From NCBI GenBank assembly GCA_009733575.1, contig ML769505.1, positions 17,567 to 81,566 of the forward strand: a DNA stretch of 64,000 nt, given 5' to 3'. Made by a program: the position numbers and the translations under genes. The notes beneath the pieces are model-generated. The model did no database searches. It saw nothing but the letters and a program-made list of their open reading frames with translations, and had not been told where the DNA came from. Within the stretch, counting starts at the first letter, position 1; each line of letters starts with the position of its first letter. Shown one piece after another: positions 28,599-53,477 of this stretch. The DNA is from Gymnopus androsaceus JB14 (Eukaryota; Basidiomycota; Agaricomycetes; Agaricales; Omphalotaceae).

Positions 28599-28643
28599 GC
28601 ACACTCGCTTATTTATCCAGGGCCTACCAACACCGCAATTGTC

Positions 28644-29123
28644 ATGATTCCAGCTGTCCCGCCAGGTAAGTACAGCCGAATCTATTGCTACACATCGCGC
28701 AACTCACATGTTCTCCTTAGGTCTCTTTACTCCGGCTACGGAACCCTTACATGCTGGTAAGCTCATGCAAAGTCTTCTGGCTGTGCCTTGCTGACCACTA
28801 ATTTGAATAGGAAGTGTTGCCGGAGCTGACTCTACTGCTACCTGCAGATGTTCCTGCCACCATTCCATATTGACTCCACTGTCCACCTTGTCCACTGTTT
28901 GGTATGCTATCACAAAAGGCTGCCGTGTAGGTGTTTATTCTTCACGGTAAGTATATACATTTGCTCCCTCCCTTGCTGCTCTAATTGACTAAACTTCTGT
29001 AGGGCCGTTGTCCAGGACGTTGTGTCTGGGTGTCGCGCTGCTTACTGCAAGTTCAGCTCTTGCAATGAAGCCGAAAGTTACTTCAATGAAGCTTTGGCCA
29101 ACCAGGTGGTCAGTGTGATTTGA
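28644..29123 (+). CDS. Cassette gene v, copy 1: viroplasmin/RNase H1 N-terminal-like domain
   Basis: Four exons: 28644-28665, one from about 28723, one from about 28812 and a last exon ending with the TGA at 29121-29123, with consistent phases. The domain reads VWYAITKGCRVGVYSS across an intron to VVSGCRAAYCKFSSCNEAES and YFNEALA. These are the W-Y-x-V-x-x-G...GVY and V-x-G...x-F-x-x-x-x-E-A positions of the caulimovirus-viroplasmin / RNase H1 N-terminal family (hybrid-binding domain). A CRCSCHH cluster precedes it. The expected second Trp is missing at the splice (RAVV in place of W-x-x-V). The homologue at 52476-53477 keeps it. The gene lies 46 bp from the edge of the DIRS-type element. Confidence 0.7.
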
Positions 29124-29599
29124 TCTCTGTTCATAAAAAATGGTATCGCCATGAGCCGTTCCCCTATTCCCTGTCATTTTTGTTGGACTCTGGTACCTTT
29201 CTCTTTCTGCTGCTGCTTGTGCTCGCTGTTTTAATTGCTATTTCTGCCGTTTTTTGTCGTTTATTCTGTGACCTGTTGTCCGCCACTTTGTTACCCGCAT
29301 ATGTGTCTTTTGTCTAATCTACTAACTATCTACCCTATATCTTTCGTGCTACATATATTTGTATCTTACCTTTATCTATTTTTACCCTCATGTCTGCATT
29401 GTTGTATGTAGCATTTATGAAGTATTTCTTGATCAGCAAACAGTCTGATAGAGGCAAAAGTGAGGGCATTTGACACAGGTTGGACAGTAGTCATTAGTTG
29501 TTAGTACTGACGAATTACTTGTTTCAGTCATAAGTACTTCAATGCAATACACTCAATATCTCCTTCGTCTCATGCCCTAATCCTTCAGAATTTAACAGT
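29124..29599. other. No gene; pyrimidine-rich 3' flank of gene v
   Basis: An open frame at 29120-29317 would encode a hydrophobic peptide, but it starts inside the end of gene v and looks like chance. I see nothing else in this stretch. Confidence 0.4.
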
Positions 29600-30640
29600 C
29601 GTCAAGATCAATACCTTCTGGAGAGAACTGTCAAATTTGAAGCAATTATATTGAAGGAGTTGTTCTGAAAAATAGGTCTGACAAATACGGTTGCTCTGCA
29701 GCTTTGGGTAAGTACCTCGATTCAACACAAAATTTCTCTTCCATCTCGCCCCCAATTCCTTCAAAACTTTGCAATCGTTCAGTTCAATACCTCCTCGAAA
29801 AAACCCCAAATTTTGAAACATTTATATTGAAGGAGTCATTCAACACTATTGGTCTGACGAAAACGGTCAATTCGAAAGCATTCAACTCTCAACATCGATT
29901 CAATTCAAAACTGCTCTTCCATCTCACCTCCAATTCCTTCAAAACTTTCCAGTCACCAAGATTTATACCTCCTTAAGGAAGCCCGAAATTTTGAAAGAGT
30001 TGTATTCAAGGAGTCACTCTAAAAGATAGGTCTGATGAATATAGTTGCTCGGAAGCTTCAGGTGAGTATCTACCTTGACTCAACTCAAAAAAGCTCTACC
30101 ATCTCACTCCCAATCCCTTCGGAATTTTACATTCATCAATCTATATACATCCTTGAGACTGTCCCAAATTTTGAAGCAATTATATTGAGGGAGTCGTTCT
30201 AGAGCATTGGTCTGACAAAACAGTCAACCTTAAGTCCCGTTATAAGTATCTACCTCGATTCAACTTAAAACTTCTCCTCTGTCTCACCCCCAATCCCTTT
30301 TAAATTTTACAGTAATCAACCTATATACATCCTCAAGACTATCCCAAATTTTGAAGCAATTATATTGAGGGAGTAGTTCTAGAGCATCAGTCTGATGAAA
30401 CAGTCAACCCCACATCTCATCAAAGTCCCATTGTAAGTACCTACTTCGACTCAACTCAGAACTTCTCCTCCGGCTCACCCCCAATCCCTTTTAAAGTTTA
30501 CAGTATTTTAAATTTTACAGTCATCAATCTATATACATCTTCAAGATTATCCCAAATTTTGAAGCAATTTCATTGAAGGAGTTGTTCTGTAGCATTGGTC
30601 TGACGAAAGCGGTTGAATCAAAAACTCTGATCCAATTACT
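29600..30640. repeat. Tandem array, six units of about 180 bp (cassette copy 1)
   Basis: The phrase CAAATTTTGAAGCAATTATA followed by TTGARGGAGT and GGTCTGAC recurs at about 29632, 29807, 29984, 30165, 30345 and 30553, giving spacings of 175, 177, 181, 180 and 208. The last unit contains an extra short duplication (TTTTAAAGTTTACAG and TTTTAAATTTTACAG). It lies just upstream of gene i. A homologous array occupies the matching place at 50440-51930. Confidence 0.9.
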
Positions 30641-30766
30641 TCCACAGCTTGCCTTCAACCATCATTTGCCAACACTTTCATCTCCTGCTTCAAGACTCCC
30701 TTCTTTTCCACTTATCTTATGCACTTTAGTTGTGGACCTCATGGATCGACATATATTCTCTTGGTC

Positions 30767-31790
30767 ATGGTGGCCAAAAAATATAAAACAGCGGAAGGAA
30801 AGAGACGGGCAAGACGTTTAGTCAATGCCCAGAACTATGCCAGGTATGTTTCTCTATTCTATTCTGAGATCATTTACTGAAATAATTCAACTAGGAATAG
30901 GGATAAAATAGCGAAGCACAGGCAGCAAAAGTATGCTGATGGCGTGCAAGAACAGCAGAGGCAAAAGACTGCGAAGTGTGTGGTATACTTGGCAATATAG
31001 GTTGCTGTAGCTCACTTTCTCCTTCTAGGCGTAAATCTGCAGCTACAGAATGGGAGAAAAATCACAAAGCGGCCTCTAAGGTGTGGAAGAAAGACAGAAA
31101 ATTGAATGCAGATGTCAAACGGTGCTGTCTTTGCTTGCAATGGCCCCCTGTCAAGTATTAATTTTTTTTACAGTCCAAGGAGCTCAGCGACCCACAAGCC
31201 TAATACCGTGTCTAGAGAGATGAAGGAAAACCGGAATACGAACATCCCTCTTACTCAACATCTGCCTTCATCCTGCGTCAAGCCTACTCACAAGGACATG
31301 AATGAGATCAACGAGATTGAATACCTTATGGATCATGATGGCCCTCTGAGACCTAAAGTGTGTGTAGCCTGTCTGTTGTGTTCTATTTCCGTTTGCTGAG
31401 GTTCCATGGTTAGTGCCCTACCTATAACAGTGTTTCAGCTTGCATTCAATAATGTTTGCAACGTATTCTTGGACTACAAGGCAGTCATTGGTCCCAATTG
31501 GATTTCAGGATTTTTCAATCGATTGCATGCAATGTATGCAAAAGACGGTGATGCCGATATTGTTGTCTGAGTGCATGACCGTGTGCAGAATATTCTCCAT
31601 CGTATGGAGCATCAACTCGCTATCCTGGAACTGGAGGCTATTGACGAAAACGATTCACTTTGCATGGTGATGGGTAAGAACATGTATGATAAAATATTGG
31701 GTACATCTCGCCGCCGCTCGGACTCTAGAACAATTTTGTACAGCCACCTCAGTGGGACCTGGCAAAGTTTTGACATATATGAGGACTGGT
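30767..31790 (+). pseudogene. Cassette gene i, copy 1: small basic protein
   Basis: ATG at 30767. At least five exons are separated by 50-60-base GT-AG introns (first intron at about 30842-30896). The N-terminus is strongly basic (MVAKKYKTAEGKRRARRLVN followed by AQNYARNRDKIAKHRQQKYA). The C-terminal part contains LAFNNVCNVFLDYKAV and ILELEAIDEND. An in-frame TGA at about 31568, in a stretch the homologue at 49282-50311 reads through, makes this copy a pseudogene. The basic, helix-rich head suggests nucleic-acid binding; this is inference. No family name known to me. Confidence 0.6.
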
Positions 31791-32198
31791 AGGCTGAGGT
31801 GGTAGCCTAATTATTGGTTTTTTCTTTTTGTAATATTGTACATTTTTGTACACTCTTTTCTCTACAATTTAACTCTCTTGCATCTCATCAAAGTTTTTGA
31901 ATGAAAGAATCAAATTAGATACAAAAAGATATTCATTAACGGTACAACAATGCAATGACTTTATGTAGTAACTAAGACAACAAGATAAGGAGATACAACT
32001 CAATAACATAAGCAGCTATAATGGTGCAATGATGCAATGAGGACAACAAGATAGGTATATGTTCAAGTCTTAAGGGTTCGGTAGTGTTAACTGGATGTTT
32101 GGACCAATGTCCAAGTAAGGCCTATTGTAGGAGTATTAGAAAGGAAGATAATAAACTTGAGAGGAAGGAGGACTCACTCGACTGGCACGGGCGGAATT
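31791..32198. other. Intergenic, no gene seen
   Basis: AT-rich sequence between the 3' ends of genes i and iii, which converge here. Similar words GCAATGATGCAATGA and ACAACAAGATA recur at about 31950-32060. Nothing else is visible. Confidence 0.4.
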
Positions 32199-32968
32199 TC
32201 AGAAGGAAAATCTCCAAGAACCTCTATAGACTATAACAAACCTCCAGCGATGCATTTCGTCTAACAGATCATAAAAAACTCGTCGAGGTGGCAATTGATG
32301 CATTGGCCAGATGTGACAGCTGGATGCATTGCGACAGTCGAAGAGCATCTTGCACCAATCAACCCAGCTAGGCAAAGCACCATAGGGCTCCCGTTTATCC
32401 TTAGACTGAGCGGACACATTCTGCACGACATGTGCTGCAGTTACCAGAGGAACCTGGTTCATGATATTCTATTACCGAATGAGTTACTTGTGGTTTAGAG
32501 AATAAAGAATTCAAGTATACTTACAGACATTTCTTCTCGAATGAAGGCCAATCGGTCAATGGGGCCGCCCTCCGTAACTGGCATGACGGGCCAGACCTTC
32601 AACCACTGATCCCTGACAACATAGGCAAAAGCTCGGAGCTTTTCACGACGTCTTGGTTGATGGGATCGCAGCAGATATGCTTGAAAGGGATGGAGATAGT
32701 GTCAACAAAAAGCTTCCGCAATTTTGCTTTACGAAATTCCTCAGATAGAGGGGGTGTTGGAATCATGAAAACAGCTCGTGTCCCTTCGCTGAAAGCCTGG
32801 TTAGACAGCACAGAGTTGATACAGGGTTGAAAATGCCAGTGTAAATATTACTTACATCGAAAATTTCATATCTTGAGGAATTGGAATTGCACCGGTAAGG
32901 ATAGCTTTGACTGCTTTTACAACTTCACTTGGTTTGACTTCAAAATAGGCCAACGGATTGGAGGACAT
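32199..32968 (-). pseudogene. Cassette gene iii, copy 1
   Basis: Starts at ATG 32968 (MSSNPLAYFEVKPSEVVKAV), with introns near 32870-32810 and 32520-32470. Segments align with the gene at 48043-48870: KAILTGAIPIPQD with NAILENRIPVDKT, FVDTISIP with FVDAIAPA, and YVVRDQWLKVWPV with VMIKRQWFRIWPL. A frame break lies near 32660. It is of unknown function, with no recognisable catalytic motif. Genes ii and iii run in the same direction, with iii downstream of ii, in both copies. Confidence 0.55.
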
Positions 32969-33288
32969 GGTCATCATTGTCATAAAGAAAGACCCGCTTA
33001 CAAAAGAAACTTGCCAGTCGGTGGCTCAAGCACTCAATTCTCAGGTCCGCGTCAAAATTGAGTACACATTGTTTTTGTTGCGGTTAATTTTGTTGCAATC
33101 ACAGTAATAAAGCTAAATGTATACTAGATGTCAAAATCAAGGTAATTCAAGAGAAAAAAGTCAAAATTAAGTATCAGATGCGCCAACAGATTACAAGAAA
33201 CAGTACTTAGGTAGGTGAAGATAGATGTGGAGAGATTGATAAAGTATAAGTAAGTTTACTAGTAGAGTTTGACCCAAGGTCCTAGTTC

Positions 33289-34293
33289 TTAGTCTAACCC
33301 ATCTTCAAAATCATCATCGCTGTCACTCTCACCATCACTATCAACCCCTGGCATATATTCATCACCGCTCATAGACTTGAGCTCATCATGTACCTCCTCC
33401 AAAGCAGCTGACTCCGATCCACTAACACTTTCATCTTCTTTGTTGTCGCGATTGCTAAGGAAACCATCAGACCCCAGGTAGTCGGAATGGATGGAGCGAA
33501 GCTCCTCTTCCCAGTCGGACATAAGTTCCTCAAAGATTTTGTCTTCCTGACCTTTGATATGATCTAGGACAGGCATGGGGAGCCTCCACTTCATCGAGAA
33601 TGCATTGTTGGGCATTTCGGGCAAGTAGCAGAGGTAGCGAGGAGGGAGACACATGAACGCATCATCTGATGAGAGCATGGAGAGTGGCAAATGATTATAC
33701 ACCATCCAACAGTGTACAGCATGCTGGAGCTCCGATCAGCCATCCAGGTAGATTTCTCAATGGGCTTGAGGAAGGGTCCCGTGATTGCGACAGATTTTTC
33801 TAAAGCCTCTTCAATGTGCTGTATATTGGTTAAAAATGCCCAAACGTGAATTAAAAATGAACACTTACATTTATAAAGCGCTGCTCTTGGTTAAGCAAAG
33901 CACCTTCTAGCACAAATTAAAACATAGCGTCAATGATACGGTGTGAGTCCTAATTTTTTTTAAAAGATTTGAGGGCACCTCATTGTGAAACGAAAAAAAA
34001 AAAACTCAGTAAACAGATTTGAGTGTTGCTTGGACCACGTCCAAGTAATTGGAAGTTTTGGGTGTTCCATTGGCAGGATATACAGGCTTGGACGCTCGTT
34101 TCCCGTGGAATTGTTCGGGCTGAAAACCATCAAGAGAGTCCTGCGGGAAAGCACGTATCTACTGAATATACGTGGCAGACAGGAACAAAGGCTTCTCATC
34201 GCATAGTTTTGTCTCTGCATAAGAGCTTGTGAGATGGTCAATGAGGGAGTCGTGACTTTCCAAATTGATATATGCCTCAATAAGAAGCGACAT
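33289..34293 (-). pseudogene. Cassette gene ii, copy 1: acidic protein
   Basis: The start is the ATG at 34293 (MSLLIEAYINLESHDSLIDH), matching the start of the homologue at 46626. A TAG at about 34157, where the homologue has Trp, ends the first exon early (YIQ-stop-IRAFPQDSLDGF against YIYWLRAFPEEALDGY). The last exon (33705-33289) keeps the conserved block VLDHIKGQEDK...ELMSDWEEELRSIHSDYLGS and ends in a Ser/Asp/Glu-rich tail. The family is unknown; the tail would be strongly negative. Confidence 0.65.
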
Positions 34294-34530
34294 GTTGAGT
34301 GTGCAAAAAATTTGTGGCAGATGAACGGATGAACACGAGTGAGAGCAATGAAAATGCCAATCAAACATTACAAGGAAGAAGCATGGAGCTGTATAGTTTG
34401 AAGAAGCATTGAAGAGTGGCTGGAGCATTAGCACTGATAATGAGCATATCGCTGATTACAAGTGTTCGGTGAACCTTATCTAGCTTACTTACTCTAACGT
34501 TCTCTTGCTTCTTGCTTCATAAAATTCCTG

Positions 34531-35570
34531 ATGAAGTTTAAGGCTACTACCTCATCGCGATGCTGATACAGGATGGATCTGGAATCTTGGCAAGCCAATG
34601 TGGCGTCCAACTTTTCTTCCCCGGTACGTCGCTCTGAATCTATTGCAAATGCTAATGTAACATTTTGAAAAGGAGCCACGGCTGCAGGTTTGTACCTTTT
34701 TCAATTTGCTTCCGAGATGCTCATGTACATTAGGATTATCTGCCGAGGCCTGAACGCGTCAACTCTCAATACCATGGTCTTTTTGATTTCCGACAAGATT
34801 ATGCTGCCCGAAAGTCTTTCGGTCTTTCGTTACTTCCTGCCTATGTTCACGCAAAGAAGCTTGGACAGGGAGCCAAGTTCTTTCATCAAGCTACTTACAT
34901 GTGGCTTTCACTTTTCCTGAAGATTGTACCCCGGGACGAAAACCGTTGGCTCAGCACACAGAATGTCTCACACGCATCGTTTACTGTGGAGACTTTGAGG
35001 AGGATCCTGATGAAGATGTGAAGCATTTCCTTTGGATGAGCCTTCCAGATGATCCTGGGCATCTACTTCGACGCAATACACTGGCTAATTTGACATTAAC
35101 ATCGCACATTTTGGTTGGTTTGATTTTCCCTCGATCTTTGACATTGACATCTGAGATGCCATTTAGGATTCCAAAATAAAAATCAAGGCATTTATTGCGG
35201 AGCACGGGTCTGAACAGGCTGCAATGTATCGGGGTATTTTGCAACAGGCGCGTTTTTTTTCGAATTATGTCATTTTGTAGTTTAAACTCGGCATCTTCAG
35301 GCCCTCGAATCCTTTCTAGAGAGGGCGCTCAAGCATCCGACAGCTACTGTGGCCATTATCCAGAAAGAAACATGGTCAGAAGAGCTCTTGCATGCGGTCG
35401 TATCTTGGACCCGTTTAAATCATCTTCCTTTTTCATTTCTGGCTGTCCACACTCCTTTTACGCCATACATACCATTTTCTGTTGCACCAGAAGCCGAACC
35501 TTGCTCAGAGCTACGCCCTTGGACCGATGGTCTTGGTTGGATTTATCCAGAGAATGAGTACAATGAATGA
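34531..35570 (+). pseudogene. Cassette gene iv, copy 1
   Basis: The start at 34531 is chosen by alignment to the gene at 45354-46415. A TGA at about 34564 and a one-base loss near 34913 (WLSLF followed by PEDCTPG in another frame) break it. Matching blocks are YVHAKKLGQ, FPEDCTPGRKPLAQH, RIVYCGDFEEDP, LANLTLTSHILVG, and the C-terminal VAIIQKETWSEELLHAVVSW and PCSELRPWTDGLGWIYPENE. It is divergent from gene ii with about 240 bp between starts. Function unknown. Confidence 0.6.
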
Positions 35571-36449
35571 TATCAATTACTTTGAAAATAATTTTTATTC
35601 CATTTCTCTACTTATGGTACTTTACTTTCTTGGAGACAATGTATATTCAATTCCTCTACTTAAGATGTATTTCTTGCGGGTGTGTGATGAAGCCACAAAA
35701 AAAAAAATCCCACACTCATAGGGTGATAAAATAAAAATTTCACTGTATCCGATAGTGCCGCTGCAAGGAATCCAGATATGTACCAAACTCTATGACAACC
35801 AAACAATACCAGCTGGACATTTTACACGGTATCCGCCCGGCATTCACAAAAGGGCGGCAAAGATTGGACGTAAGAGGGCAGGCACAGTACATATATACAT
35901 CTCAGTTGGTACTTATGTACATCTATCTCTCTGGAAATGTGCACAGTATTTATCTACAGTGGTACAGCATGTATCCACTATGGGAGTATTCTTTACAGTC
36001 TGATGGTATTTTTCCACTATGGGCATATATACTGATATCGTGTGTATGGAGATCCCCATGGGATTTATTTACTGGGGATCTATGGTACATATCACCTGTA
36101 CAGCCTCACAGAAATCTATACCGTATTTATTCACTTACTTGGGCTACGCACTATGCAGCCTTTCAGAAATTGGCATGGTATTGATCTACTGTGTTGCCCC
36201 ACAGAAATCTCCACAGTATCCATATACTGTGGGATAGACTGTATTTATTTTTTCCTGGTTATGGTACTGCCGCAATGTCTGTATATTGATATTCCCATAG
36301 TGTTTATGCACTGCAATCGCGCTGTATATATCTTATATGCTGCCTACAGACATCTCCACTGTATCTATCTACTGTGGGCTATAGTATTTATCTACTGCTT
36401 AACCTTTGAGAAATTAACACAGTAGCTATCAACTCACTCTGCCTTCAGA
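35571..36449. other. Non-coding, grading into the TCTACTGTG repeat
   Basis: No gene. From about 35880 onward the text has scattered ATCTACTGTG, CCACAG and GTATTTATTTAC words that become regular after 36450. The open frames here are low-complexity and repeat-driven. Confidence 0.5.
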
Positions 36450-37230
36450 ATCTCCATGGTATCAATCTACTGTGCAAACTTGAGAAATTGACGTTGTATT
36501 TATCTAGTCAATCTGCCTTCGGAATCTCCACAGTACCTATTTACTGTTGGCTATAGTATATAGCTACTGTGCTACCTTTGAGAAATTGACACTGTATTTA
36601 CCTACTCACTCTTCCTTCAAGATCTCCATGATATCTATCTACTGTGCATCAAAATTGACACTGAATTTATCTACTCAATCTGCCTTCGGAATCTCCACAG
36701 TATTTATTCACTCAGGTCTATAGGTACTACCATGGTTACTATCTACTGTGCTACCGTTGAGAAATTGACACTGAATCTATCTACTCAATCTGCCTTTGGA
36801 ATCTCCACAGTATCTATTTACTGTGGGCCATAGTATGTATCTACTGTGCTACCTTTGAGAAATTGACACTGTATTTACCTACTCACACTGCCTTCGAAAT
36901 CTCCATAGTATCTATCTACTGTGTATCAAAATTGACACCAAATTTATATACTCAATCTGTTTTCGGAATCTTCACGGTATCTATTCACTCAGGTCTATGG
37001 GTACTACTATGGTCACTATCTACTGTGCAGCCTTTGGGAAATTTACATTGTATTTATCTACTCACTCTGCCTTTGGAATCTCCATGGTATCAGTTTACTG
37101 CCAGTGTGCAACCTTTGAGAAATTGACATTGTATTTATCTCGTCAATCTGCGTTCGGAATTTCCACAGTATCTATCTACCGTGGGCTATAGGTCCTTATA
37201 TACTGTAGTACTGTATTCCTTACATATATG
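36450..37230. repeat. Higher-order tandem repeat, 277-bp period
   Basis: The word TCTCCAYRGTATCTATYTACTG recurs three times per unit. Landmarks at 36525, 36802 and 37079 are 277 apart; so are 36623 and 36900, and 36692 and 36969. The linkers are alike too (GAAATTGACACTGTATTTAC, CTCAGGTCTATRGGTACTAC). Basic subunits of about 70-110 bp have therefore been amplified as a trimer. It abuts the truncated copia element. Confidence 0.85.
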
Positions 37231-37323
37231 GTAGTATCCTTCTAGTATGTTCTATGTGCATGACCTATGATGTCATCCATAAAGCTACTTACTAAGATAC
37301 TACTGAGGCTGAGTAAGTCTACC

Positions 37324-40300
37324 TCAGATGAACAATGCATCATCAATATAGATGATTGCAATTACAGTCTTATTGTTTTCTTTGTAAACATATATGCTGG
37401 CATCTGAAGTGCAATGTTTGAAGCCTAGATCCTGGGTCATCAACTTTGTACAAGCATGCCACCAGGACAAACCAGCTTGCTTCAGGCCATAAAGAGATTG
37501 GTGTAATCTCCAAACCTTGCTGCTATCCTTAATGAAGCCTTCAGGTTGTTCCATATAAATCTCCTTGTCTAACTCGCCATATAGGAAGGCAGTTTTTACA
37601 TCCAGTGCCTCTAGTTCCCATTCTTCTAGGGCAGCTAGTGCAAGAAGAACTTGCACTGGTTCATAACAAACAATGGAAGAGAACAATTCATCATAATCCA
37701 CTCCTTCTACTTGAGAATATCCCCTGGCAACAAGTCTAGCAACAAGTCTAGATTGTTTCCGACCATCTGAATTGATATCAAAGACCCATCTGTTCTTTAT
37801 GACATTTCTGTTCTTGGGTCAATCAACAATTTCAAAGACCTTTTGCTTAACTAGACTGTCAATCTCTTCTTTGCATCTGTCAAGCCACAGTTGCCATTTC
37901 TTTACAGGAAGGTGCATCAAATCATGAAACTGCCAGTTTTGAACTGTTTCCTTATTTTCAGGAGCCTGAGAAAGCAAATAGTCCAGAAAAGCTATTCCCC
38001 CTTCATGAGCCAACTGGGAAATATAATCAATACTTCTGCATCCATTCATACTTTCTTCCAAATAATTGTTCACAGGTGGGTCAGGAATGAGATTATTTGT
38101 TTTAGGCTGTTGCTGAGCAGGTTGCCTTTGCTGGGAAGGCCCAGCTTCAGGTTTATCACCATAAATCTGACAATTCCATCTGATATCAGAACCAATATTA
38201 CAAGATTGACCAGCATTTTGATCAATCTCTGCAGGAGAAGTATCACTGTAAATATTTTTGGGTCTCTGGGTAGATACTCATGTTCTTTCAGAACATCTTA
38301 CTGTTGGTGCTGGTTCAGGTTCCATTCCAGGATTGAATGGATTTGGGGGTGGTTGCATGGCACCAGCTTTCCCTTGATCTGCACCATGTTGATCAGGCAC
38401 TTCTCCTCCACCTTTTACTTCCTCATCTCCTGCTCCATTTTCTCCATCATTTTGTGAATCTATTGGAGCAGGATGATTGGGTGGAGGAGGAAACTCAGGG
38501 TCATCATTATCATCATTATTCTCAGGAGCAGACCCAGATGGTTTGGAATCCTCTTCAAAATCATTATCATCAACATCAACTGTAGGTTCTGATGTTGAGC
38601 AGTGTGGAAGCCAGCGCTCATCAAATATGGCATTGGAAGAAGTTGCAATTGAATTATTATGTGTGTGCATGAAGTGATAAGCATTCATTCCCTGTGTGTA
38701 TCCAATAAAAATCATTACTTCTGATCTCAGAGCTTGCTTGTTAGGGCAAGTCTCCTTTCAATGATACACATATGCAGCACATCCAAAAGTCTGAAATTTG
38801 GACACATCAGGCTTCTTCCCAAATCTTATTTCATAAGGTCTTTTCCAATTTCTATTTTTATCCCATCAGTGGTGCATAGGTGTCCTATTATAGACAACAT
38901 ATGCAGTTTGAGCACTAAATTCCCACCAAGAAGGTGGTAAGCAGGCCATGTGCCTCATGGCTTCCAATTTCTCATGGATTGTATGGTTGAATCTTTCAAT
39001 TCTCCCATTCTGCTGGTGTTCATATGGTGCCAATGGTCCCAATATAATCCCTTTATTGCAGCAAAATTGACTGAAATCCTTAGTGAAAAATTCATTATCA
39101 ACTCATATTTGTTTTATTTTGATAGCATCTGGAGGTCTACAAGATTGTAGAATTCCTTCAATGCTTCAAATATGTCAGATTTGGCAGCTAGGAGATATCT
39201 TGCACCATATGATGAGCAATCATCAAGGGTATTCAGTACATATTTGTGTTTGTGATACAAAATAGTGGGAAACTCTATAATGTCCATATGGACTAAATCA
39301 AAGAGTTTCTCTGCACACTTCTCACTATTGGGATAAGTGTGCTGGGTTATTTTATCCTTAGCACAACCAGCACATATTCTTTGTCCTCATTTGGAATATT
39401 TACTTTAGGAAAACCACCTGTTGCCTCAGACACATGTTGTAACACATCTTTAGAAGGATGTCCAAGGTGACAATGCCATATGTCATAGTCAATAGTTTTT
39501 TGAGCAATCAAATTTTTAGGAATTCTGATATTTTTGGGAATAAAGTTCCTAAAAAGGTCAATCTTGCTCTTTACAACTTTTGGTTTTTAACCAGTGTAGA
39601 GCATCTGACAAGTTCATGGAGTAGCACATCATGAAGACCTTATGATTGCTCTTAAACCTAAGTGATGTTTTCTTCTCATCAACATAGGCATAATAGCCAT
39701 GGCGCAAGATGCTGCCTTGCAAGAGAAGGCAGTATGGTGAATGTGATTGGTAATATACTGGTTCCAATTTAGTAACTTGGGTGACATTATTCTCATTCAT
39801 ATGTTTGATGAGAACAACTCCAGCATGTGTAATATAAGTCTTTGACCACTTATCAGCAGTCTGGATTTCTGTTGGTTTTTCTAATTGTTTTAATTCTGTG
39901 AAATCTGACTTATATGGCATGGTATGTATTGATGCACCTGAATCTAAGATCCAGATATCTTCTTTATATTTTGCACTTAAAGCAGCAATCTCATTTTTGA
40001 CATTGGCAAACAGAATATATTTATTAAAAAATACAAGCAGTGGTAAAAATAAGTCTGAATGGCCATTTTTGCCTTGTGAGATCCACACTATCAAATTATT
40101 CTGTTGTAACTTTAATGAGTTAGGAGATTTTAATAAAGAAGAATTAACTTGCCACTGCATGAAGGGATCCTCATAATCAAATTCCAATGCTTCCATAGTC
40201 TTGAAGGGTTCAGCTTCCATCTCAAAGTCATTAGGGGCAAGAGAAGCTTGAGCAACTTCAACTGACTCAAAAGCTTTCTTCTTCCCTTTGTACTTCTTAC

Positions 40301-40664
40301 CTCCTCAGGATCCATGCTTCTTTCCATTGTTGGGTTGAGAAGATGAACCAGACTGCTGGTCCTGCTGCTGCTGGCCTTTGCCATGCTGCTTCTTCTGTTT
40401 CTTCCAATTAGGATTGAAATGGTGGTGTTTAACACTGCTGATCCAAGATTGAAGGGTGGATTGTTGCCTGGTGCTGCAACAATGCCATTCATTTCTGATC
40501 AGAGTCAAAATGTTGGCAACAGTCCAGTTGCTACCAGTTGCAGAAGTAAGAACCAAAGTTTTGAAACCTTCCCAAAGTTCAGAAGAGCTGCCAAATAAGG
40601 AGAACCTGGAGATTTGCATTAAGCTTGAGATCATTTTCTGCCAAGTAATGCAAAGTAGCAGCAA
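37324..40664 (-). pseudogene. Truncated Ty1/copia retrotransposon polyprotein
   Basis: From the right: a gag part (40664-40305) with a basic, Gln-rich tail; the protease box DIWILDSGASIHTMPYKSDF (about 39950); the gag-pre-integrase region; integrase remnants with RICAGCAKDK, VDNEFF, and LPPSWWEFSAQTAYVVYNRT; a linker; and reverse transcriptase with LDVKTAFLYGELDKEIYMEQ, LYGLKQAGLSWW and IYIDDALF (YIDD at about 37335). The order protease-integrase-RT identifies copia. The sequence stops right after YIDD at the 277-bp repeat, so the RT end, RNase H and both LTRs are missing. At least seven in-frame TGA codons occur (for example 37819-37821, 38866-38868, 39113-39115, 39387-39389), and CpG is almost absent across 3.3 kb. 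Confidence 0.85.
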
Positions 40665-44100: not shown

Positions 44101-44769
44101 GCATGGCGATTATTCATGCAGTCTTGACAGAGCAGTTCCAGCGTGAAGCAATCGCGACAGCGATGTTGACGATTCAACTGATCAACTGCAAAGATTCGAC
44201 CACAGCTACACTGCGAACCAGCTCCGAAGATACCCCTGCCTTCCAAGCGTAAGACCTCGCGAAGATACAAATCCAGTTCTGGCCGCCAAAGTGCAAGCTC
44301 CTGCGGAAAACCAGTTAGTAAGAGTGACTAGACGAGGCGACGGGAAAGTGAATACATTGCGCGAACCATCTTTCTTGATTCCAGCACTTTCTTCTTCATC
44401 CGCTTCTTCTCCTTTGCCTGATAGACTTCTTCCCCGCAATGCCTTTTTATCAGAGTCTCCGAATGTATAAGTCACCACTCCAAGATTTGTTATGACCGAT
44501 GAACATATAACCGGTGTCCATCCGCTCATGGGCACAGAAAAAGCAGGTGGAGATCCAGTTCTATCGTCGGCTTCCTGTGGCTCAGCAGGCTCAGCAGGAA
44601 TAGTTGTATTGAGATGTTTTTGATGCGTAGAAGCGGTGACATTGACATGGCTAAAATGTACAGTCTGGAGAGCCGGCGTTTTGTGGGATAGCTCATCCTG
44701 TGAATTGTCTGAATCTGATTCTGGTAATACATAGGTTTGGACGTTCCGTGTTTTCTTCTTTTTCGGCAT
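41168..44769 (-). CDS. KDZ-family transposase
   Basis: Starts MPKKKKTRNVQTYVLPESDS at 44769 and has about ten exons. After a Ser/Glu-rich head comes a cysteine cluster at about 44210-44060 (CSCG, HRCRDCFTLELLCQDC, HAYTPFHRLEV), which is the CxC2-like domain associated with KDZ transposases. The catalytic region lies in 43930-42560. Hallmarks include CARHDCF (about 43090), SAYDIMCNWSVHLFERL (about 42880), VPKFHLNAHIERC and GVGHTDAESPERAW, then MGPGPHRDMLDEHFGDWNW. The C-terminal coiled region (42000-41168) ends near 41168. These are DDE-type cut-and-paste enzymes common in Agaricomycetes. A TGA at 41348-41350 in the tail and unresolved joins near 43080-42960 leave it open whether this copy is active. 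No terminal inverted repeats were identified. Confidence 0.8.
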
Positions 44770-44875
44770 CCTTAGCGTCGGTGATGAAGTCTTTTAAAAA
44801 AGCGAAAGTGTAACAGGGCAAGCTTGTGCAGTTAAAAGGTTATTGATTATGTATGCAAATAGCTCACATAGTCAT

Positions 44876-44956
44876 GGCATCATGAACTAGTGGTAACAAG
44901 CTGCTGAGCGGGCGCTTCTTCCTACAAGTTTGGAGTTCGAACCCAGTGCTGCCGTT
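44876..44956 (+). other. tRNA-like sequence (pseudogene or SINE head)
   Basis: GGCATCA at the start and TGCTGCC at the end could pair as a 7-bp acceptor stem with one mismatch. ACTAGTGGTAACAAGC resembles a D-arm/A box, and GGAGTTCGAACCC is a good T-loop/B box. The anticodon arm is not convincing, so a tRNA relic is more likely than a functional tRNA. Confidence 0.4.
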
Positions 44957-45055
44957 CTTTCGTTTCATGCTTTTCTATCATGAATTTTTTTTTTTTTTTT
45001 CGATTTCACCAAGAAACACAGTATCTTTGCTACAAGATGATATACTGTATATATA

Positions 45056-45320
45056 CAGTGACGGCCAGATCAAATCCACACCCCCCGGATTACGTCACCG
45101 GCGCTTAAGCCCTACTTGTAGCAATATCCGAACAGAAAAAAAGCTTTTAGGTTTTCTACAGGGCTACCTCCTGTTAGAATGACCCCTACCAAGCATACGC
45201 CATTCTTATATACCACAATGTCCAAAAAAAACAACATGTTTTTGGGGATAGAAGACTTACGCGCTGGTGACATAACCGGTTTCCAAATCCGGGGGTGTGG
45301 ATTTGATCTGGCCGTCACTG
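45056..45320. mobile_element. 265-bp Tc1/mariner-type MITE
   Basis: Inverted repeats begin CAGTGACGGCCAGATCAAAT and continue to CCACACCCCC, at both ends, with TA on each side (45054-45055 and 45321-45322), the target of Tc1/mariner elements. It has no coding capacity. It lies 33 bases beyond the stop of cassette gene iv copy 2. Confidence 0.9.
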
Positions 45321-45353
45321 TATGTATATCTACAAGAAATTTTTTTTTTCGAA

Positions 45354-46415
45354 TTAATCATGCTCAGGATAAACCCAAGCGAGATTGTCATCCCAGGGAT
45401 GCAGCTCCGAGCAAGGCTCCATCTCCGGAGCATTTGTAAACGGTAGATAATGAGAAAAAGGCACATGTACTGACAGAAAAGTAAATGGAAGAAGATAACG
45501 GAGAGACCAGCATCCAAATGCAAATGACAGTTTGTTCCCCCACGTATCTTTTTGAATCGGAGTGACCGTTGCATTAGAAATCTTCTCGGCCTTGCGTAGA
45601 AAGCGGTAAATGGCCTGTAGTCAATGAGTATTTTTTTAAATAAAGCAAAACGTTAAGCTACACACCACTTCCAAGAAACCTCGATTTTCAGCAGCTTCCG
45701 CTGTTCCATGCTCCAGAATATACTGTCTGATACGAAGTCCTGCCTCCTAAACAGAGAGGCAAACGGTTTATTTCTAAGCATCGTCAAACTGAGCAAAAAA
45801 AACCTACCTGAGTTTGCATGGCTATAGTATGATTCGCCAGGGTATCGTGTCGGTGGATTCGTTCGGCATTGTCTGGCAGAGTCCGCCACAAAAAACGCTT
45901 GAGATTTTCCTCTGGATCCTTGGGATAGTCGTCGCAGTATACAATGGCTGTGAGTCGGTTCGAGTGCTGATCTATTGGTTTGCATCCTGGCGTGCAATCC
46001 TCCGGAAAGACAAAGAGCCATGTATATGCGGCTTCACGGAGAAACCTCGCCACTTGTCCCAGCTTCTTGGCATGCACATAAGACGGAAGCAGATAAAGTG
46101 CAAGGGACTTTCGGGCAATGAAGTCTTGATGGAAATCAAATGAATGGTGGATTCGCTGGCTCGGATTAGTTGTATCGGTGATGAGTCCAACATAATCCTA
46201 GAGAAAATCATAAACCTGGCCCTAGGAAACAAATTTGAAAGTACAAACTTGCTTCCGTGGTTCCTGCATAGATGTTAAATGGAGACGAGCCCTAAAAGGT
46301 GGATGTAACATACCTGTAAAGCGCAATCAGGAAAACGCGCTATATTCTCCTTCCACGCATATAGATCGATGTTATATCGTCGTTTGGCAGAAGCGAAAGA
46401 TCTACGCTTTTGCAT
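45354..46415 (-). CDS. Cassette gene iv, copy 2
   Basis: Six exons give an open frame of about 300 residues: MQKRRSFASAKRRYNIDLYA... from 46415; a micro-exon EPRKQ; a large exon with FDFHQDFIARKSLALYLLPS, YVHAKKLGQVARFL and FPEDCTPGCKPIDQH; EAGLRIRQYILEHGTAEAAE; and a last exon from AIYRFLRKAEK to LHPWDDNLAWVYPEHD, stop at 45354-45356. Introns are short, with good borders (for example near 45840-45780 and 45680-45615). Compared with copy 1 the reading shows which GT-AG segments are real introns, because coding blocks align and introns do not. No domain is known to me. It is divergent from gene ii, about 210 bp between starts, so a shared promoter region is likely. Confidence 0.7.
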
Positions 46416-46625
46416 GCTCACGTCTGAGTTTATGTTTGAGTCTAAGTATTGTAAGGTTAAGGTTGGCGCTTCGCAATCGTTGTGCACGAGCGCTTATGAT
46501 GATGCTTCTTAGACCTGTATAGCTCAGCCACCTACAGTATGAGGCTTCTTTGACCTGTATAGTTCCGTCAGCCACCAACGGCCACCACTTAATTTCTCTC
46601 ACGTCTTTTAACACCTTGAACACCA

Positions 46626-47796
46626 ATGTCGGCATTTGTAGATGCGTATCTTAACTTCGAAAACCAAGAAACTTTTGTTCGCCACATTTCTGTGGCATAC
46701 TCTGCAGCAAAAGCCCAAGATGAAAGCAATGCGTTTCTGAGCGTAGCTTACATATACTGGCTTCGCGCGTTTCCTGAAGAAGCTTTGGATGGCTACACGC
46801 TTGAAAAATACCATGGAAAACATGCTTTAGAGCTGGTTTATCCAAAAGACTCACCTACATTTCTACAAATCGTGGAAGCAACTTTAGTCTACGTTCGTCA
46901 AGTAAGTTTCTTTTTTCTTAGGCTGTCGCAAGCTCTAATAAATACCCGTTACTTATTCATGCTGTAGCAATCGGACGAATCCATCAATCAACAATTCGAA
47001 TTTGTTCTTGAACCAGCCCTGCTCAATCAGGAGCAATGTCTAATTAACGTAGGTTTTTTGTTGCCCTTTCATTTAATACCCCTGCCTCATTGTTGGTATG
47101 GCGCAGGTAATTGAAAAGACGCTTGAAGTTTCTTTGCAAGTCGCCGGCCCTTTTCTTAAACCACTCGAACGCAAAACTTGGAACGATGAGCTCCACTATG
47201 CCTCTAGATGCTGGATGATTTACAATCGTCTACCTACGTCGTTGCTGTCTGGAGTGGACGCTCTATTGCTCCCTCCGCCTTACACATGTTATACCCGAGA
47301 CCCTCCAAAGGGTACCCTATCGCTAACCTGGAGACACCTGACTCCTGTCCTTGACCATATTGAGGGTTGCGAAGAGGAGGAGTATGAAGAGCTCATGTCA
47401 GACTGGAAGGATGAACTCCAATCTATACATTCTTCTTACTTAGGCTCCGAAGGATTTAGTAGCGATTACGACCTGGAGGCTGAAGATGATGAGGTAGAAG
47501 AGGATGAGATGGAAGAGGATCCACGAGAAATTGATGATGAGGAAGAGGGCGACATTGAGGAGGTTGGAGACGTTCAAGATGCCGATGGCAATGATGAGAA
47601 GTCAGAGGTCGAAGAGACTGGGTATACAGACAATTTTTCTATTGGATTCGTTGCATATGTGCTCTCAGCAGACAGCGACGACGATACAGATGCTGATGAT
47701 GCCGATTACTTGCCTGTTGACGACGAGAGCGACTTCGAAGACCATGATTTCGAAGGTGATGAGGTTGTAGTTGCAAAGACTTGGTGGATCTGTTGA
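46626..47796 (+). CDS. Cassette gene ii, copy 2: acidic protein, intact
   Basis: Exons 46626-46901, 46968-47048 and 47107-47796 give 348 residues without a stop. The N-terminal half is helical and mixed in charge (MSAFVDAYLNFENQETFVRH, YWLRAFPEEALDGYTLEKYH). The middle has a conserved block TWNDELHYASRCWMIYNRLP, then HLTPVLDHIEGCEEEE, YEELMSDWKDELQSIHSSYL. The last 110 residues are mostly Asp and Glu, as in histone- or DNA-mimic-like tails. Gene iii follows 247 bases downstream in the same direction. Family unknown. A nuclear role is a guess from the acidic tail. Confidence 0.75.
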
Positions 47797-48042
47797 AGTT
47801 TGGTACTTATTTTATGTTGTTGTATCTTTTTGTATGTTTTGTATTGTCTTGCATCTTGTAGCTTCTTGTCGTCGCGCGTACACATACATAGTCAAATGTA
47901 CTGTTCCATCGCTGCACAATGATTGCGTTTGAATGAATGAACTTGAACGGATGAACTTGAACGGATCAAAACTGAAAGTTACTTAGTGGGAACCAGCTAG
48001 CAAGGCAGCCACATTGACATCGTGACCTTGCTTCTTTTTTTC

Positions 48043-48870
48043 ATGGACGACGAACTGGACGCCGACTTACAACAATTACACGCTTCTCTTGAGGCATCCT
48101 TTGCTCGTTCAGAAGCCAGAGAAAACGCAGTTAAAAGTGGTTGGACTGACAAGGTATTCAATGCGATACTTGAAAACCGCATTCCCGTGGACAAAACTCA
48201 ATTCACCCAGTACGTTGCATGTTCCCACTCCAGATTCCCCAGCTTTTTTAAGCTTTATACTCATAGTAAGGGCTCGATGGTTATCTTTCCCGGCGTTCGT
48301 CGGAGGCCGTACATCAGCGATGATGAGCGCCAGGAAAGATGCAGGAAACAGTTTGTGGATGCCATTGCCCCTGCATTGGAAGTAATCATGAACTGAAAAG
48401 ACAAGGAGGACCTTGCTCTTCCATTTCGAGTGATGATCAAGAGACAGTGGTTCAGAATATGGCCTCTGTCGGACGAAGTAAAGGCATCTCCCGCTTTAAA
48501 AGCTGAAGCAGTTCAAAAAGCTTTAAAGGCAAGTTGTACATTGTTTACATTTCAGTTCATGCTAAACCTAGTGCAGCTCATTGTAGATGATCTACACACA
48601 TGCATGTTCCACCGAAGATACGAGCGAGCTAGGGCAAAGTCTAAGAACGAGCCTCCTCCATACCGTACTTATAATTCTCTCACCAATTGGCGAACCGTTC
48701 TTATCAACGGACTCAACGCCTCCTAGTGTCAACGTTGGACAACTTATTGCGCACCTCTTGGCCCACCTGGACCTCCGATTGTGCTAAATATGGGATACCG
48801 GTATGATCGCTGCGCGTTTATCAAAAGGCTCCTCAGTGAAATCCCGCATGAACTTCCTCCTCCTCAGGAA
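48043..48870 (+). pseudogene. Cassette gene iii, copy 2
   Basis: ATG at 48043 (MDDELDADLQQLHASLEASF). The open frame to about 48395 contains WTDKVFNAILENRIPVDKTQ and RKQFVDAIAPALEVI. A TGA at about 48394 and a TAG at about 48724 interrupt regions that align with copy 1 (RQWFRIWPLSDEVKASP, then TYNSLTNWRTVLINGLNAS, then CAPLGPPGPP). An intron near 48531-48580 is likely. If undetected introns remove the stops the gene could still work, but both stops lie inside aligned blocks. Function unknown. Confidence 0.55.
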
Positions 48871-49281
48871 TGAATCGTAAGTATCTCCTACATGTCTGAC
48901 TATTGCTTGTCTCACCAAGTATCTTTAGATTGTTGCCGTATGTTTTCTTCATGGCCTTGCTCACTTCGAGACCTTTCGGGACCATATCTATATCCACATC
49001 TATAATGGACGTTCTGCATACATACTTATCTTGATCCTTTATGCTCGTCTATATTAGCTTGTACCTCCGAGTCAAAAAAAAAAACGCTGCGAGTTGAAAA
49101 AAGTTTCTTCATAAATACTTAATACATAAGATTAAAAGCTTGCGATTGTCTTCCAAGTGACAACATTTTAGATACACAAAATAAATGCTCGGGATAATTA
49201 CAAGATATCATGCCAACGACGTTGCACCTCTGCTTCTCTAATAAATGCAGCAGTTAAAAGTGCTTGAAGCTTCTTTGCTGC
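48871..49281. other. Intergenic between convergent genes iii and i
   Basis: AT-rich 3' flanks; no gene and no notable repeat except A-runs near 49075. Confidence 0.4.
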
Positions 49282-50311
49282 CTACGACATCTCCGACAGC
49301 ATCTCCTTCCCTGTTTCCACCCGTATCAGTTCCGCCTCGGTGTAAGCCTCTAGTTCCAGGATCGAAACCCGCATAGTCATACGTTGAGTTAGCAGTTGTA
49401 GCTCTGTATCAAACTCCGTCAATGCATCGATTCCCTCCAGCTGGTACCGGGAATGGAGCGTTTGAAAAAACCCATTCGGCCACCCAGATCTCACAATGTC
49501 TTTATATGACCGAAAGATCTTGCGTACATTTTCAAAGGCAAGCTGAAAGCCGCCAACTGAGAGCCTACTGCAGACAAATATAAGAGAGTTTAGTAGTGGC
49601 GAATCAATAGAGAGCTCTAGACTGACCTTTTATCCGGATTGTAAGGAAGGCTCCATGTGCGAGCGGAATCACACTTCTCATTGCTAAAGCTGGCACAGAG
49701 GCTTTTAAAGTCACGTTCTGCTTGGGCATCTTCAGTCTCTCGTTCATCGGGACCACGAGATTTGGAAGGATGGTTGGAACGACGACTGGAAGGATGAGTT
49801 AGATTTACAGCCTCTCGCTTATTGGGCCCGTGAACCTTGGAAGGACGAGTAGAATGACGATTAGGAGTGATACATTTGGTTGGATCAGAAGCGATGGCTT
49901 TGGATCTGTGGATAAAATATCAGAAAAGATTATGTTGAGAGATGGATGGAGACATATTGTTGACCTTTGCAAGGCGATGAGCTAGATTTTTTCCAGAGCG
50001 TCTCCTTCAGCTTGGCCTTTCTACGTTTAGAGAGCAACTTGCGACTGAAATAACAATAGTAGTCTGTGTACCCAGTTTGTAGAGAATTTGCCACTTACTT
50101 GGCTGCGTTGGCCTTTTGATGTTCTAGCTTGGCTTGCTGGTAATTCCCCTTCCGCTTCGTCTGGATTTTGGCTTTATTGCTAACGGGGGTATATTAGTGT
50201 AGTTGTAAAAAATGGAACGGATTGACCTACTTCGCATAATTCGCCGCGTTTACAGCACTCCTCACTGCCTTTCTCTCCTTGTCTGTGTTGTATTTCTTGG
50301 CGAAAGGCATT
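49282..50311 (-). CDS. Cassette gene i, copy 2: small basic protein
   Basis: ATG at 50311 (MPFAKKYNTDKERKAVRSAV, NAANYAK). About six exons: basic heads with KAKIQTKRKGNYQQAKLEHQ and SKRRKAKLKETLWKK; a polar exon rich in PSK/HPS; then RLSVGGFQLAFENVRKIFRS and VSILELEAYTEAELIRVETG, stop at 49282-49284. It aligns with the gene at 30767-31790 at both the basic head and the C-terminal ILELEA block. The join of exons three and four (intron near 49965-49906) is off by one base in my reading, so either a splice site is misplaced or this copy also has a lesion. The head suggests nucleic-acid binding. Confidence 0.6.
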
Positions 50312-50439
50312 CTTACATAAACATTGGAGGAAGTTAGAAAGACAGCGTTGGACGGTAAAACAAGGAACAAGCAAAAAAAAGCAAGCGTAAGTTGATGGTC
50401 AGAAGTGAAGAGAGATCTAATTAGCCGATCAGACTCGAC

Positions 50440-51930
50440 TCAATGAATTCGGGATCGTCAGACACATACCTGATTATTTCTCCTCCCAATGTTCTCGCTT
50501 CAGATTGTGTCTTTGAGATGAATAGATATCGATAATGAGGCCCGTCAAATTTGAAGACGTTCGGAGAAGGAGTAGAGTCGAAGTGGTAGTATGTAACTAA
50601 AGCAATTATTGATCAGACTTGGTGATATTGATTTCGTCAGACACATACCTGGCGTGTCTCCACTGAATAGATCCACTTCAATTTTTGGATTCGAGATGTA
50701 TAGATATCGATAATGAGGCCTGTGAAATTTGAAGATGCTCGGAGAAAGAGAAGAGTCAAAGTGAGAGTAAGTGTCTGAAGCAAGATCAATCAGACTCTTG
50801 GTGGTTTTGGGATCGTCAGACACATACCTGGTATGTTTCCTCTCAATGGAATCGCTTCAGATTGTGTGTTCAAGATGTATAGATATCGATAATGAGGCCC
50901 GTCAAATTTGAATAGGCTCGGAGAAGGAGCAGAGGCAAAGTGGTAGTAAGTAACTAAAGCAAGATCTGTCAGACTCGTGGTGGGTTTGGGATCATCCGAC
51001 ACGTACCTCGTATCTTTGCTCGCAATGAACTCGCTTCAGATTATGTATTCGAGATATATAGATATCGAGAATGAGGCCCGTGAAATTGAAGCCATTCGGT
51101 GAGAAGGATTAGAGTCGAAGTGGCAGTAAGTAGCTAAAGCAATTATTGATCAGATGAGTCGGTGATAGTTATTTTTGTCAGACACATACCTGACGTGTTT
51201 CCTCTCAATGGATCCACTTCAAATTTCGGAGTTGAGATGAATAGATATTTATAGTGAGGGTTGTGAGATTTGAAGATGTTCGGAGGAAGACTGAGTTCAA
51301 AGGGAGAGTAAGTGTCTGAAGCAAGTTTGATCAGACCAGTGGTTCGAGGGATTGTCAGACACACTCGTATTTCTCCTTTCGATGGACTCACTTCAGACTG
51401 GAGATTTGAGATGGATAGATATCGATAATGAGGTACGTCAAATTTGAAGATGTTTAGAGAAGGAGTAGAGTCGAAGTGGCAATAAGTAACTAACGCAATT
51501 ATTGATCAGACTCAGCGATATTGATTTCGTCAGACACATACCTGGCGTATTTCCTCTCGATGGATTCCACTTCAAATCTTGGAGTTGACATGAATAGACA
51601 TCAATAATATGGCGCGTGAAATTTGAAGACGTTCGGAGAAGGAGTAGAGTCAAAGTGGCAGTAAGTAAGTAAAGCAATTATTGATCAGACTCGGTGATAG
51701 TGATTTCGTCAGACACATACCTGGCGTATCTCCTCTCAATGGGTCTACTTCAAATTTTGGAGTTGAAATTTGATATCATTCGTCAGACACATACCTGGCG
51801 TATCTCCTCTCAATGGGTCTACTTCAAATTTTGGATATCAATAACGTGGCCCGTGAAACTTGAAGACGTTCGGAGAAGAATTAGAGTCAAAGTCAAAGTG
51901 GCAGTAAGTAAAGCAATTATTGAAAGAAAA
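50440..51930. repeat. Tandem array, eight to nine units of 179 bp (cassette copy 2)
   Basis: The word GTCAGACACATACCTGGCGT recurs at 50457, 50636, 50815, 50994, 51177, 51354, 51529, 51708 and 51782, with spacings of 179, 179, 179, 183, 177, 175, 179 and 74. Each unit also has TAGATATCGATAATGAGGCC and AAGCAATTATTGATCAGACT. The last step is a truncated unit. Read on the minus strand, the unit aligns with the array at 29600-30640 (CTTCTCC, CAAAATTTGAAG, ATTGAGAGGAG, GTCTGACGAAA in the same order). Confidence 0.95.
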
Positions 51931-52475
51931 TAACTCTGAATACCAAGAAGTAAATTTTGGCTAATATTAAGTGAACATGCTAGTATACCACTAAGATCAT
52001 GATATGCCTCAATAGAGATTCCCTCAACAAAAGATCGTCGAAAGAGTAGCGAGGCTATATAGTCCTCAAATAAGGGTCACTAGTAATAGAGATTAAACTT
52101 ATAGGATAGAAAATACTAGACCAGTAAGAACGCGAGGAAGGACTCGAGGAAAACAATCAATTTAGGTTCAAGATAACATTGACGGTAAAGATAGCAAGTA
52201 ACGTATATATAGATAGCGACTAGATAGCAAGGGTAAAGATAGGTACAGAAAGCACAGGCGGATAGAAATAAACACCAGCGAAGACACATTAAACTGCACA
52301 GCGAGCAGGCAGGAGTCCAAAAAACGATGACAACTGCTTGGAAAACATGACATTGACTACACCCTTCTGTATCCCAATAAGCATATGAAATACTTGCAAG
52401 CGGCGGAAGACAGTGAACACTGAGCGAGAACAAGTCCAAAAAAAAGCGACCGGCACTAGAAGAAGCGCTGCCCCT
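51931..52475. other. Spacer between array and gene v, copy 2
   Basis: No gene supported; the minus-strand open frame here overlaps the 3' flank of gene v. Nothing repetitive seen. Confidence 0.4.
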
Positions 52476-53477
52476 CAGATGACGTTGACCACACCTTCTT
52501 GCAAGGCTTCGTCGAAATAAACATTTGCCTCCTCGCGGGAGCTGAAACGCTTGTAAGCGGCACTGCAGCCTGATACGTAGGTCTGAACGAGCGCCCTGGA
52601 AGTTTACTTCAGTTAGACTCAAAAGCTGGGAGAGAAAGAAATCTTACCAATTAGTGAAGATACCGACTCGTCTGCCACGCGTAACAGCATAGAATGTGGC
52701 TGAATTTTGATGACAGTTACAGGTGCAGTTAGTGCCTATAACGACTCAATGAGCATACAGCAGAGATGACGAGCAAACATGGAACATACTGGTCCCTTGA
52801 ACAGGAAGGACCGCAGCTGCAAGAAGTACCAAGTCATCAGCGTACGGCAGAGAGAAGAAAAGAGCAAGGGACGTACCGGTGGGAGTTGCATTTGGAACAG
52901 GGACTGCTGCGGCTGCAGTACCTGCAACAACTCGGTTAGCGTACGACAGAGATGAGGAATGCGCGTAGGATATACCAGTGCTTTGGGCGGGAAGGGCTGC
53001 GGCTGCCAGGGGACCAGGTTGATCAGCGTACGGCACAGAAGCTGACGGTTCATCAGTCAGTTTGAATGTCGCAGAAAAAAAAGAGACTTACCACTCCTCG
53101 TGGTGGAAGTCGAGTCTGCTAAAAAAAAAACTTTATGAGTGAGATCGTTTTTTTTTTACCAGGAACGCCCGAGACTTACCAAGTTCACTAACAGAGGGCT
53201 GGGTTGATGCTACTTGAGGTTTCATGAGTAAGAAATGTGGAGATAAAATGAAAGAAAAAAATAACAATTACCTGAGGAAGGCGTGCTCGGAGGCGGGTCT
53301 GATTCTGAGATGAGCAAAAAAACGAGGACGGTAACGAAAGACTTACTGATATCTAGCGTGGAGAAGATTAGTTTAACGTAGTGCGGTTGAGAGTATATTT
53401 GACTTACTAAGGGCATTGACCGCGCTGGTAAGGAGAAGGAGAGCTGTTTGGATGTTGGAAAGACTTTGTTGTTGCAT
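52476..53477 (-). CDS. Cassette gene v, copy 2: viroplasmin/RNase H1 N-terminal-like domain
   Basis: Starts at ATG 53477 (MQQQSLSNIQTALLLLTSAV) and has about ten exons, several tiny (one of six bases at about 53352-53347), separated by 50-70-base introns. Linker exons are rich in Ser, Pro and Ala (SDPPPSTPSS, AVPVPNATPTG). The final two exons give GTNCTCNCHQNSATFYAVTR, GRRVGIFTNW, VSGCSAAYKRFSSREEANVY and FDEALQEG, stop at 52476-52478. This has the W/Y-x-V-x-x-G-R-x-x-G-I-F...W...V-x-G...KRF...EA layout of the viroplasmin/RNase H1 N-terminal domain, which binds RNA-DNA hybrids or double-stranded RNA in RNase H1. There is no RNase H catalytic domain, so it would be a stand-alone binding module. 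It is divergent from the gene at 53714 across 236 bp. Confidence 0.75.

Follow-up and report, generated by a model that had tools for sequence, protein, structure and literature searches.

Two mirror-image gene cassettes in Gymnopus androsaceus, very probably the accessory interior of a large KDZ-superfamily DNA transposon

A 64,000-nucleotide stretch of the genome of Gymnopus androsaceus JB14, an Omphalotaceae agaric (contig ML769505.1, positions 17,567 to 81,566 of the forward strand; assembly GCA_009733575.1), referred to here as the window, contains five genes, i to v, and a tandem array twice over, in two inverted and diverged copies. To what larger unit do these genes belong, and does that unit move? 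The mirror-image order of the two copies, reported by a first-pass annotation of the letters, was recovered in a translated comparison of positions 27000-38000 with 44000-55000. The five genes and the array very probably constitute the accessory-gene interior of a large DNA transposon of the KDZ superfamily. Copy 2 is nearly full length, a 16.3-kb element at window positions 40662-56953 (16,292 bp end to end) that reads left end, vi (transposase), iv, ii, iii, i, array, v, vii, right end. Copy 1, which has no ends, is a remnant from a sister subfamily.

Extent and genes of the copy 2 element

The source assembly (83.3 Mb, 934 contigs) was searched for further copies, which are named below by contig (C591, C178 and so on). 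The closest, C591, is homologous and collinear with copy 2 from 40662 to 54659, and the main DNA pieces share 72-81% identity. Translated blocks against C591 reveal two extra genes: the left side holds vi (41.1-44.8 kb, minus strand) and the right side vii, from 53.7 kb onward. The limits first assigned to the cassette, 45354 and 53477, are therefore too narrow, since the homologous block extends further, the right terminus lies at 56953, and both vi and vii had been missed. The features of copy 2 are as follows.

40662-40674, plus strand: left terminus (LE), CAACCTACGACAC; interrupts a Copia element
41060-44769, minus strand: gene vi, multi-exon KDZ transposase that carries a CxC2 cysteine cluster; start inferred; blocks conserved in C591, C178 and C427
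45048-45328, no strand: small insert between vi and iv with 38-nt inverted repeats; left out of the element genes
45354-46417, minus strand: gene iv, deposited as BT96DRAFT_996228 (P0007); five genomic places
46626-47796, plus strand: gene ii, deposited as BT96DRAFT_996229 (P0001); acidic C-terminal half; paralogue of iv
48043-48873, plus strand: gene iii, fused to ii in the deposited C591 model P0003
49282-50310, minus strand: gene i, basic N-terminus and ILELEA block; start inferred; seven genomic places
50455-51761, minus strand: tandem array of ~179-bp units; period and span from Tandem Repeats Finder
52475-53453, minus strand: gene v, Cauli_VI / RNase H1 N-terminal domain; exon 53385-53453 assigned by inference
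53714-55788, plus strand: gene vii, conserved to ~54746; last exon (54913-55785) inferred
56941-56953, minus strand: right terminus (RE), reads GAGCCCCAGACAC inward; shared by the window, C178, C169 and C427, whose flanking DNA differs

The carrier is identified by vi. This gene matches CxC2 (PF18803, E 3.4e-34), a cysteine cluster before the KDZ core, and the KDZ core itself (PF18758) in two exon blocks, at 8.9e-32 (model 97-217) and 2.8e-11 (model 1-87). Since vi combines the catalytic core with a CxC domain, the element is placed in the KDZ superfamily. The deposited "hypothetical proteins" BT96DRAFT_996228 and 996229 are, on this assignment, transposon genes; the copy 2 protein ii is 98% identical to a deposited G. 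androsaceus JB14 protein.

Of the accessory genes, v carries a predicted RNase H1-type hybrid-binding domain (PF01693, E 1.4e-11 for the joined exons of copy 2 and 3e-6 for copy 1). It is the sole accessory gene above the Pfam cut-off; ii, iii, iv, i and vii gave no family above it in the blocks that were scanned. NCBIfam gave no match for P0001, P0003, P0007 and P0008, the iv-led profile A5 none among solved structures, and Rfam none at gathering scores. The predicted structures are poor, with mean pLDDT of 50.9 for ii and iii together (P0003) and 47.6 for iv (P0007), values too low for a fold search. Profiles of ii match iv and vice versa (for instance, the ii profile matches iv of C178 at 1e-17), and the divergent pair ii/iv thus consists of paralogues.

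The insert at 45048-45328 is 281 bp long and its 38-nt inverted repeats are 97% alike. The gap between vi and iv is ~250 bases shorter in C591, so the insert resembles a small transposon that entered the element later.

Termini and target duplications

Aligning the genomic copies for common ends, as had been proposed, yields both a left and a right end, each with different DNA outside it. Written as patterns, the ends of the element are 5'-CAACCTACGACAC ... GTGTCTGGGGCTC-3'. CAACCTACGACAC or a close variant of it forms the left terminus in the window, C591, C178, C99, C862 and C5, where the outside DNA differs; in all, six contigs among the stretches retrieved carry left ends and four carry right ends. 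The two termini of copy 2 are alike at 19 of their 31 first bases, a likeness equalled in 1 of 20000 shuffles. A pattern search of the genome with up to three mismatches returned 177 right ends and 150 left ends, and the same patterns read backwards returned 0 for both.

Pairing the first 100 listed places of each end gave 51 facing pairs. Forty-five are spaced 512-720 bp apart, and the others 1,025, 2,094, 2,124, 5,010 (C862), 11,641 (C99:69306-80946) and 16,292 bp (copy 2). An exact 7-bp target duplication flanks nine of the ten end pairs examined, the exception being C99. For instance, C862 is a 5-kb derivative that holds vii and has an exact 7-bp target duplication. Short elements of ~0.5-0.7 kb with KDZ-type ends are found genome-wide (e.g. 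C5:676400-677039 and C48:123863-124500), with exact 7-bp duplications in all seven checked; these short end-pair copies are non-autonomous.

The target duplications that the first-pass annotation had called for are therefore present at the family's end pairs and absent from copy 2 itself (flanks GTAGCAG / GTTTGTC), C178 (flanks TACATCA / CATCTGT) and C99. This absence speaks against the assignment of the cassette to a KDZ interior, and suggests that these three large two-ended elements are old, rearranged, or bounded by ends from different insertions. On the left of copy 2, a Copia-type element (37192-40661, Pol_BBD 1.1e-8) is cut exactly at the KDZ left end. In C156 and C369, this Copia element runs on uninterrupted at the insertion point. 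The other Copia half was not found beyond the KDZ right end, nor was an intact or displaced right-hand Copia junction at up to three mismatches, which also weighs against the KDZ assignment; the lack of a duplication at copy 2 agrees with the absent second Copia half. In the main, however, the earlier proposal that the genes travel together as a mobile element was right, given the transposase, the defined ends, the 7-bp target duplications at family end pairs and the dispersed copies.

We envisage a cut-and-paste reaction, in which the vi transposase would bind both related ends, excise the element and insert it with a 7-bp staggered cut. The short elements sharing these ends would be moved by vi or by a sister transposase.

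Genomic copies, subfamilies and selection

The genome searches scored the best candidates and the profile searches took in the fetched stretches, so that copy counts are lower bounds. Cassette genes occur at no fewer than seven places: copy 1, copy 2, C591, C178, C427, C169 and C268. Copy 2 and C591 have all parts from vi through vii, as does C178, in which one inversion between i and iii has taken the left end with it. C427 keeps part of vi along with iv, ii, iii, v and vii, and its array and i are inverted as a block. C169 retains vii, v, the array, i and the iii region, and C268 retains i and the array. The inversions of C178 and C427 are deduced from pairwise alignments. In both contigs (C178:6516-32787 and C427:10648-24489) a breakpoint of the inversion falls beside i or the array, which may be a hot spot of breakage. 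Copy 1 has iv, ii, iii, i, the array and v, arranged in the window as follows.

28843-29123, plus strand: copy 1 gene v, translated match; PF01693 3e-6
29530-30505, plus strand: copy 1 tandem array, units of ~178-191 bp
30767-31700, plus strand: copy 1 gene i, translated match
32202-32701, minus strand: copy 1 gene iii, matching copy 2 weakly in translation; DNA 74% identical to C178
33292-34293, minus strand: copy 1 gene ii, translated match
34661-35570, plus strand: copy 1 gene iv; homology to other copies stops near 35571

At the protein level, copies 1 and 2 share 53-63% identity in the main blocks of iv, 37-56% in ii depending on the block, 43% and 34% in i, and 62% over 40 aa and 34% over 35 aa in v. 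Gene iii is the weakest of the five, at 20-31% identity (E 2.5e-4 and 1e-3). At the DNA level, parts of iv alone can be aligned (67%).

Could a single recent segmental inversion or duplication have produced both window copies, the scenario that the first-pass annotation had itself set against a mobile unit? The two copies are oppositely oriented within one 25-kb stretch, as such an event would leave them. Over the DNA of iv and ii, however, copy 2 and C591 are 80-81% identical and copy 1, C178 and C427 are 73-81% identical among themselves, versus 55-64% between the groups. Gene i shows the same two-way split with C169 and C268 added, at 44-54% identity between groups. Copies 1 and 2 thus belong to different subfamilies and are not sisters, and a recent event, ruled out by the subfamily split over iv and ii, has next to no probability left. 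An old inversion or duplication followed by conversion is a remote possibility.

Alternatively, the five genes and the array could be a separate mobile or selfish unit, nested in or lying beside a KDZ element in some copies. Copy 1 would fit such a unit, since it has the five genes and the array and neither vi, vii nor the termini were found with it, an absence that also tells against a KDZ interior. Similarly, C99 has both ends and vi, yet gives no match to queries for ii, iv, i, v and vii. However, no common ends are seen around the five genes alone, the homologous block of C591 is unbroken from vi to vii, synonymous divergence is similar across vi, iv, ii, iii and i, and copy 1 ends abruptly at the end of iv, as expected of a truncated copy. 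In support of the KDZ interior, vi adjoins iv in four of the five places that hold iv and ii (copy 2, C591, C178 and C427). We consider a nested unit improbable and retain the KDZ interior as our reading, in which the case of C99 means that the cassette is dispensable for some elements with such ends and is a property of some subfamilies. KDZ cores are abundant in the genome, with 118 matches to the core block.

Selection was estimated from one pair of copies, copy 2 and C591. The gene blocks are under purifying selection: dN/dS is 0.11, 0.24 and 0.13 in three blocks of vi, 0.28 in iv, 0.18 in ii, 0.28 in iii, 0.27 in i and 0.34 in vii, values lowered somewhat because the blocks are stretches picked for conservation. 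The ratios for ii and iv are those that the first-pass annotation had proposed to compute. The synonymous sites of v are saturated (67 codons). dS is 0.52-0.70 in vi, iv, ii, iii and i and 1.14 in vii, and this higher value for vii is a point against the KDZ reading. The blocks contain no stops in copy 2 and 16 across all genes in C591. Ratios of 0.11-0.34, with stops confined to C591, indicate that the accessory genes were maintained with the transposase and that C591 decayed later.

The purifying selection, together with the divergent transcription and strong divergence of ii and iv, would also be expected of a host multi-allelic recognition locus (mating or incompatibility type) that was duplicated and diverged, with the transposase a neighbour by chance. 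This is very unlikely: the genes lie at seven dispersed places, partly truncated or inverted, the C591 blocks hold 16 stops, common termini are joined to different flanks, and vii sits within a derivative bearing a target duplication.

The array lies between v and i in copies 1 and 2, as it does in five of the seven places (also C591, C178 and C169), and arrays of 178-191-bp units adjoin i in all seven. The DNA of the copy 2 array is found in the genome only at copy 2 and C591. Nevertheless, the copy 2 array reaches 26.7 bits (E 7.7e-9) with a profile of array units from C178, C427 and copy 1, whereas none of 100 dinucleotide shuffles of it exceeds 8.8 bits; the arrays are thus related beyond chance despite their diverged units. 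The array may or may not consist of spliced repeat exons. One frame of the C178 array is open across most units, in pieces of 108 or 120 nt separated by 71-nt GT-AG stretches, but the copy 1 units have stops in this frame and the copy 2 units are irregular. Moreover, between C178 and C169 the would-be introns are the less variable, differing at 11 of 403 sites against 47 of 874 in the would-be exons. Because v, the array and i are all on the same strand, a single gene spanning them was also considered. It is not supported, since gene i seems to begin with a start of its own next to the array; the array there is a candidate binding or promoter region.

Accessory genes compared with those of known KDZ elements

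Fungal KDZ transposons are best known as carriers of TET/JBP genes. No Pfam match to TET/JBP was found in the scanned exon blocks, which cover part of the element's bases, and the deposited proteins.

For Kyakuja, a KDZ group of Agaricomycetes, 7-bp duplications are reported, with CA..TG ends lacking terminal inverted repeats (TIRs) in two Laccaria families, and the Kyakuja families described carry a TET/JBP gene, genes besides the transposase being possible (Kojima 2025, PMC12730594). The G. androsaceus element resembles Kyakuja in its superfamily, its 7-bp duplications, a left end that starts with CA and the possibility of extra genes, and differs in its CA..TC ends, its imperfect inverted repeats, its six other genes and array, and the lack of a TET/JBP match. 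Since the agreement extends to the duplication and the left end and not to the right end or the inverted repeats, we file the element under KDZ without a subgroup. The same study reports 8-bp duplications for Zisupton and for a Dileera element, and TET/JBP genes in some Zisupton and Dileera elements (PMC12730594); they share the transposase superfamily, whereas the duplications here are 7 bp. KDZ1-KDZ3 of Cryptococcus neoformans are ~9-11 kb long, with CxC1, TIRs of 139-241 bp and 8-bp or 4-8-bp duplications (PMC12810828). They are likewise large KDZ elements with a CxC domain in the transposase, whereas the G. androsaceus element has CxC2, short imperfect TIRs and a length of 16.3 kb.

The first-pass annotation had raised an undescribed multigene system. 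As to the carrier, this does not stand, for it is a transposon of a known kind; as to the accessory genes it does, insofar as v alone has a Pfam match above the cut-off. The accessory set differs from those in the KDZ families described, and it is unnamed in the portions surveyed of the KDZ, Kyakuja, Dileera and G. androsaceus transposon literature, a survey without the founding KDZ paper. It is larger than and different from TET/JBP, is found in two old subfamilies and, in the one pair of copies compared, shows purifying selection.

What might these genes do? The paralogues ii and iv (ii with its acidic tail), the basic i, the hybrid-binding-type v, iii and vii may have been kept because copies that carried them spread better. 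Their likeliest roles would be to aid assembly of the transposition complex or to shield the element against host silencing. More specifically, we suggest tentatively, as a doubtful though reasonable guess, that the six genes are an undescribed lineage-restricted module that stands in place of TET/JBP and shields KDZ elements from silencing or steers their integration, with v binding hybrids, ii and iv duplicated, and the array as a docking site. The cassette in any case provides concrete orphan genes on which to test a role in transposition or in evading silencing.

Relatives of ii and iv are few in a database of 5.8 billion proteins. The ii profile, for which the best 7995 candidates were scored, found six proteins, two from G. 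androsaceus and four labelled lgn, ena; the iv profile found eight in the same database, three from G. androsaceus and five labelled lgn. No other named species is among these matches, in a search that relies on shared five-residue words, and the distribution may be wider than the matches found.

Elsewhere in the window, 24324-26950 holds a gag-like frame and, after it, a weak match to an aspartyl protease (7.5e-4, under the cut-off), probably the remnant of an LTR retrotransposon, and TTAGGG-like short tandem repeats, internal to the contig, occur at 1108-1332 and 23598-23630.
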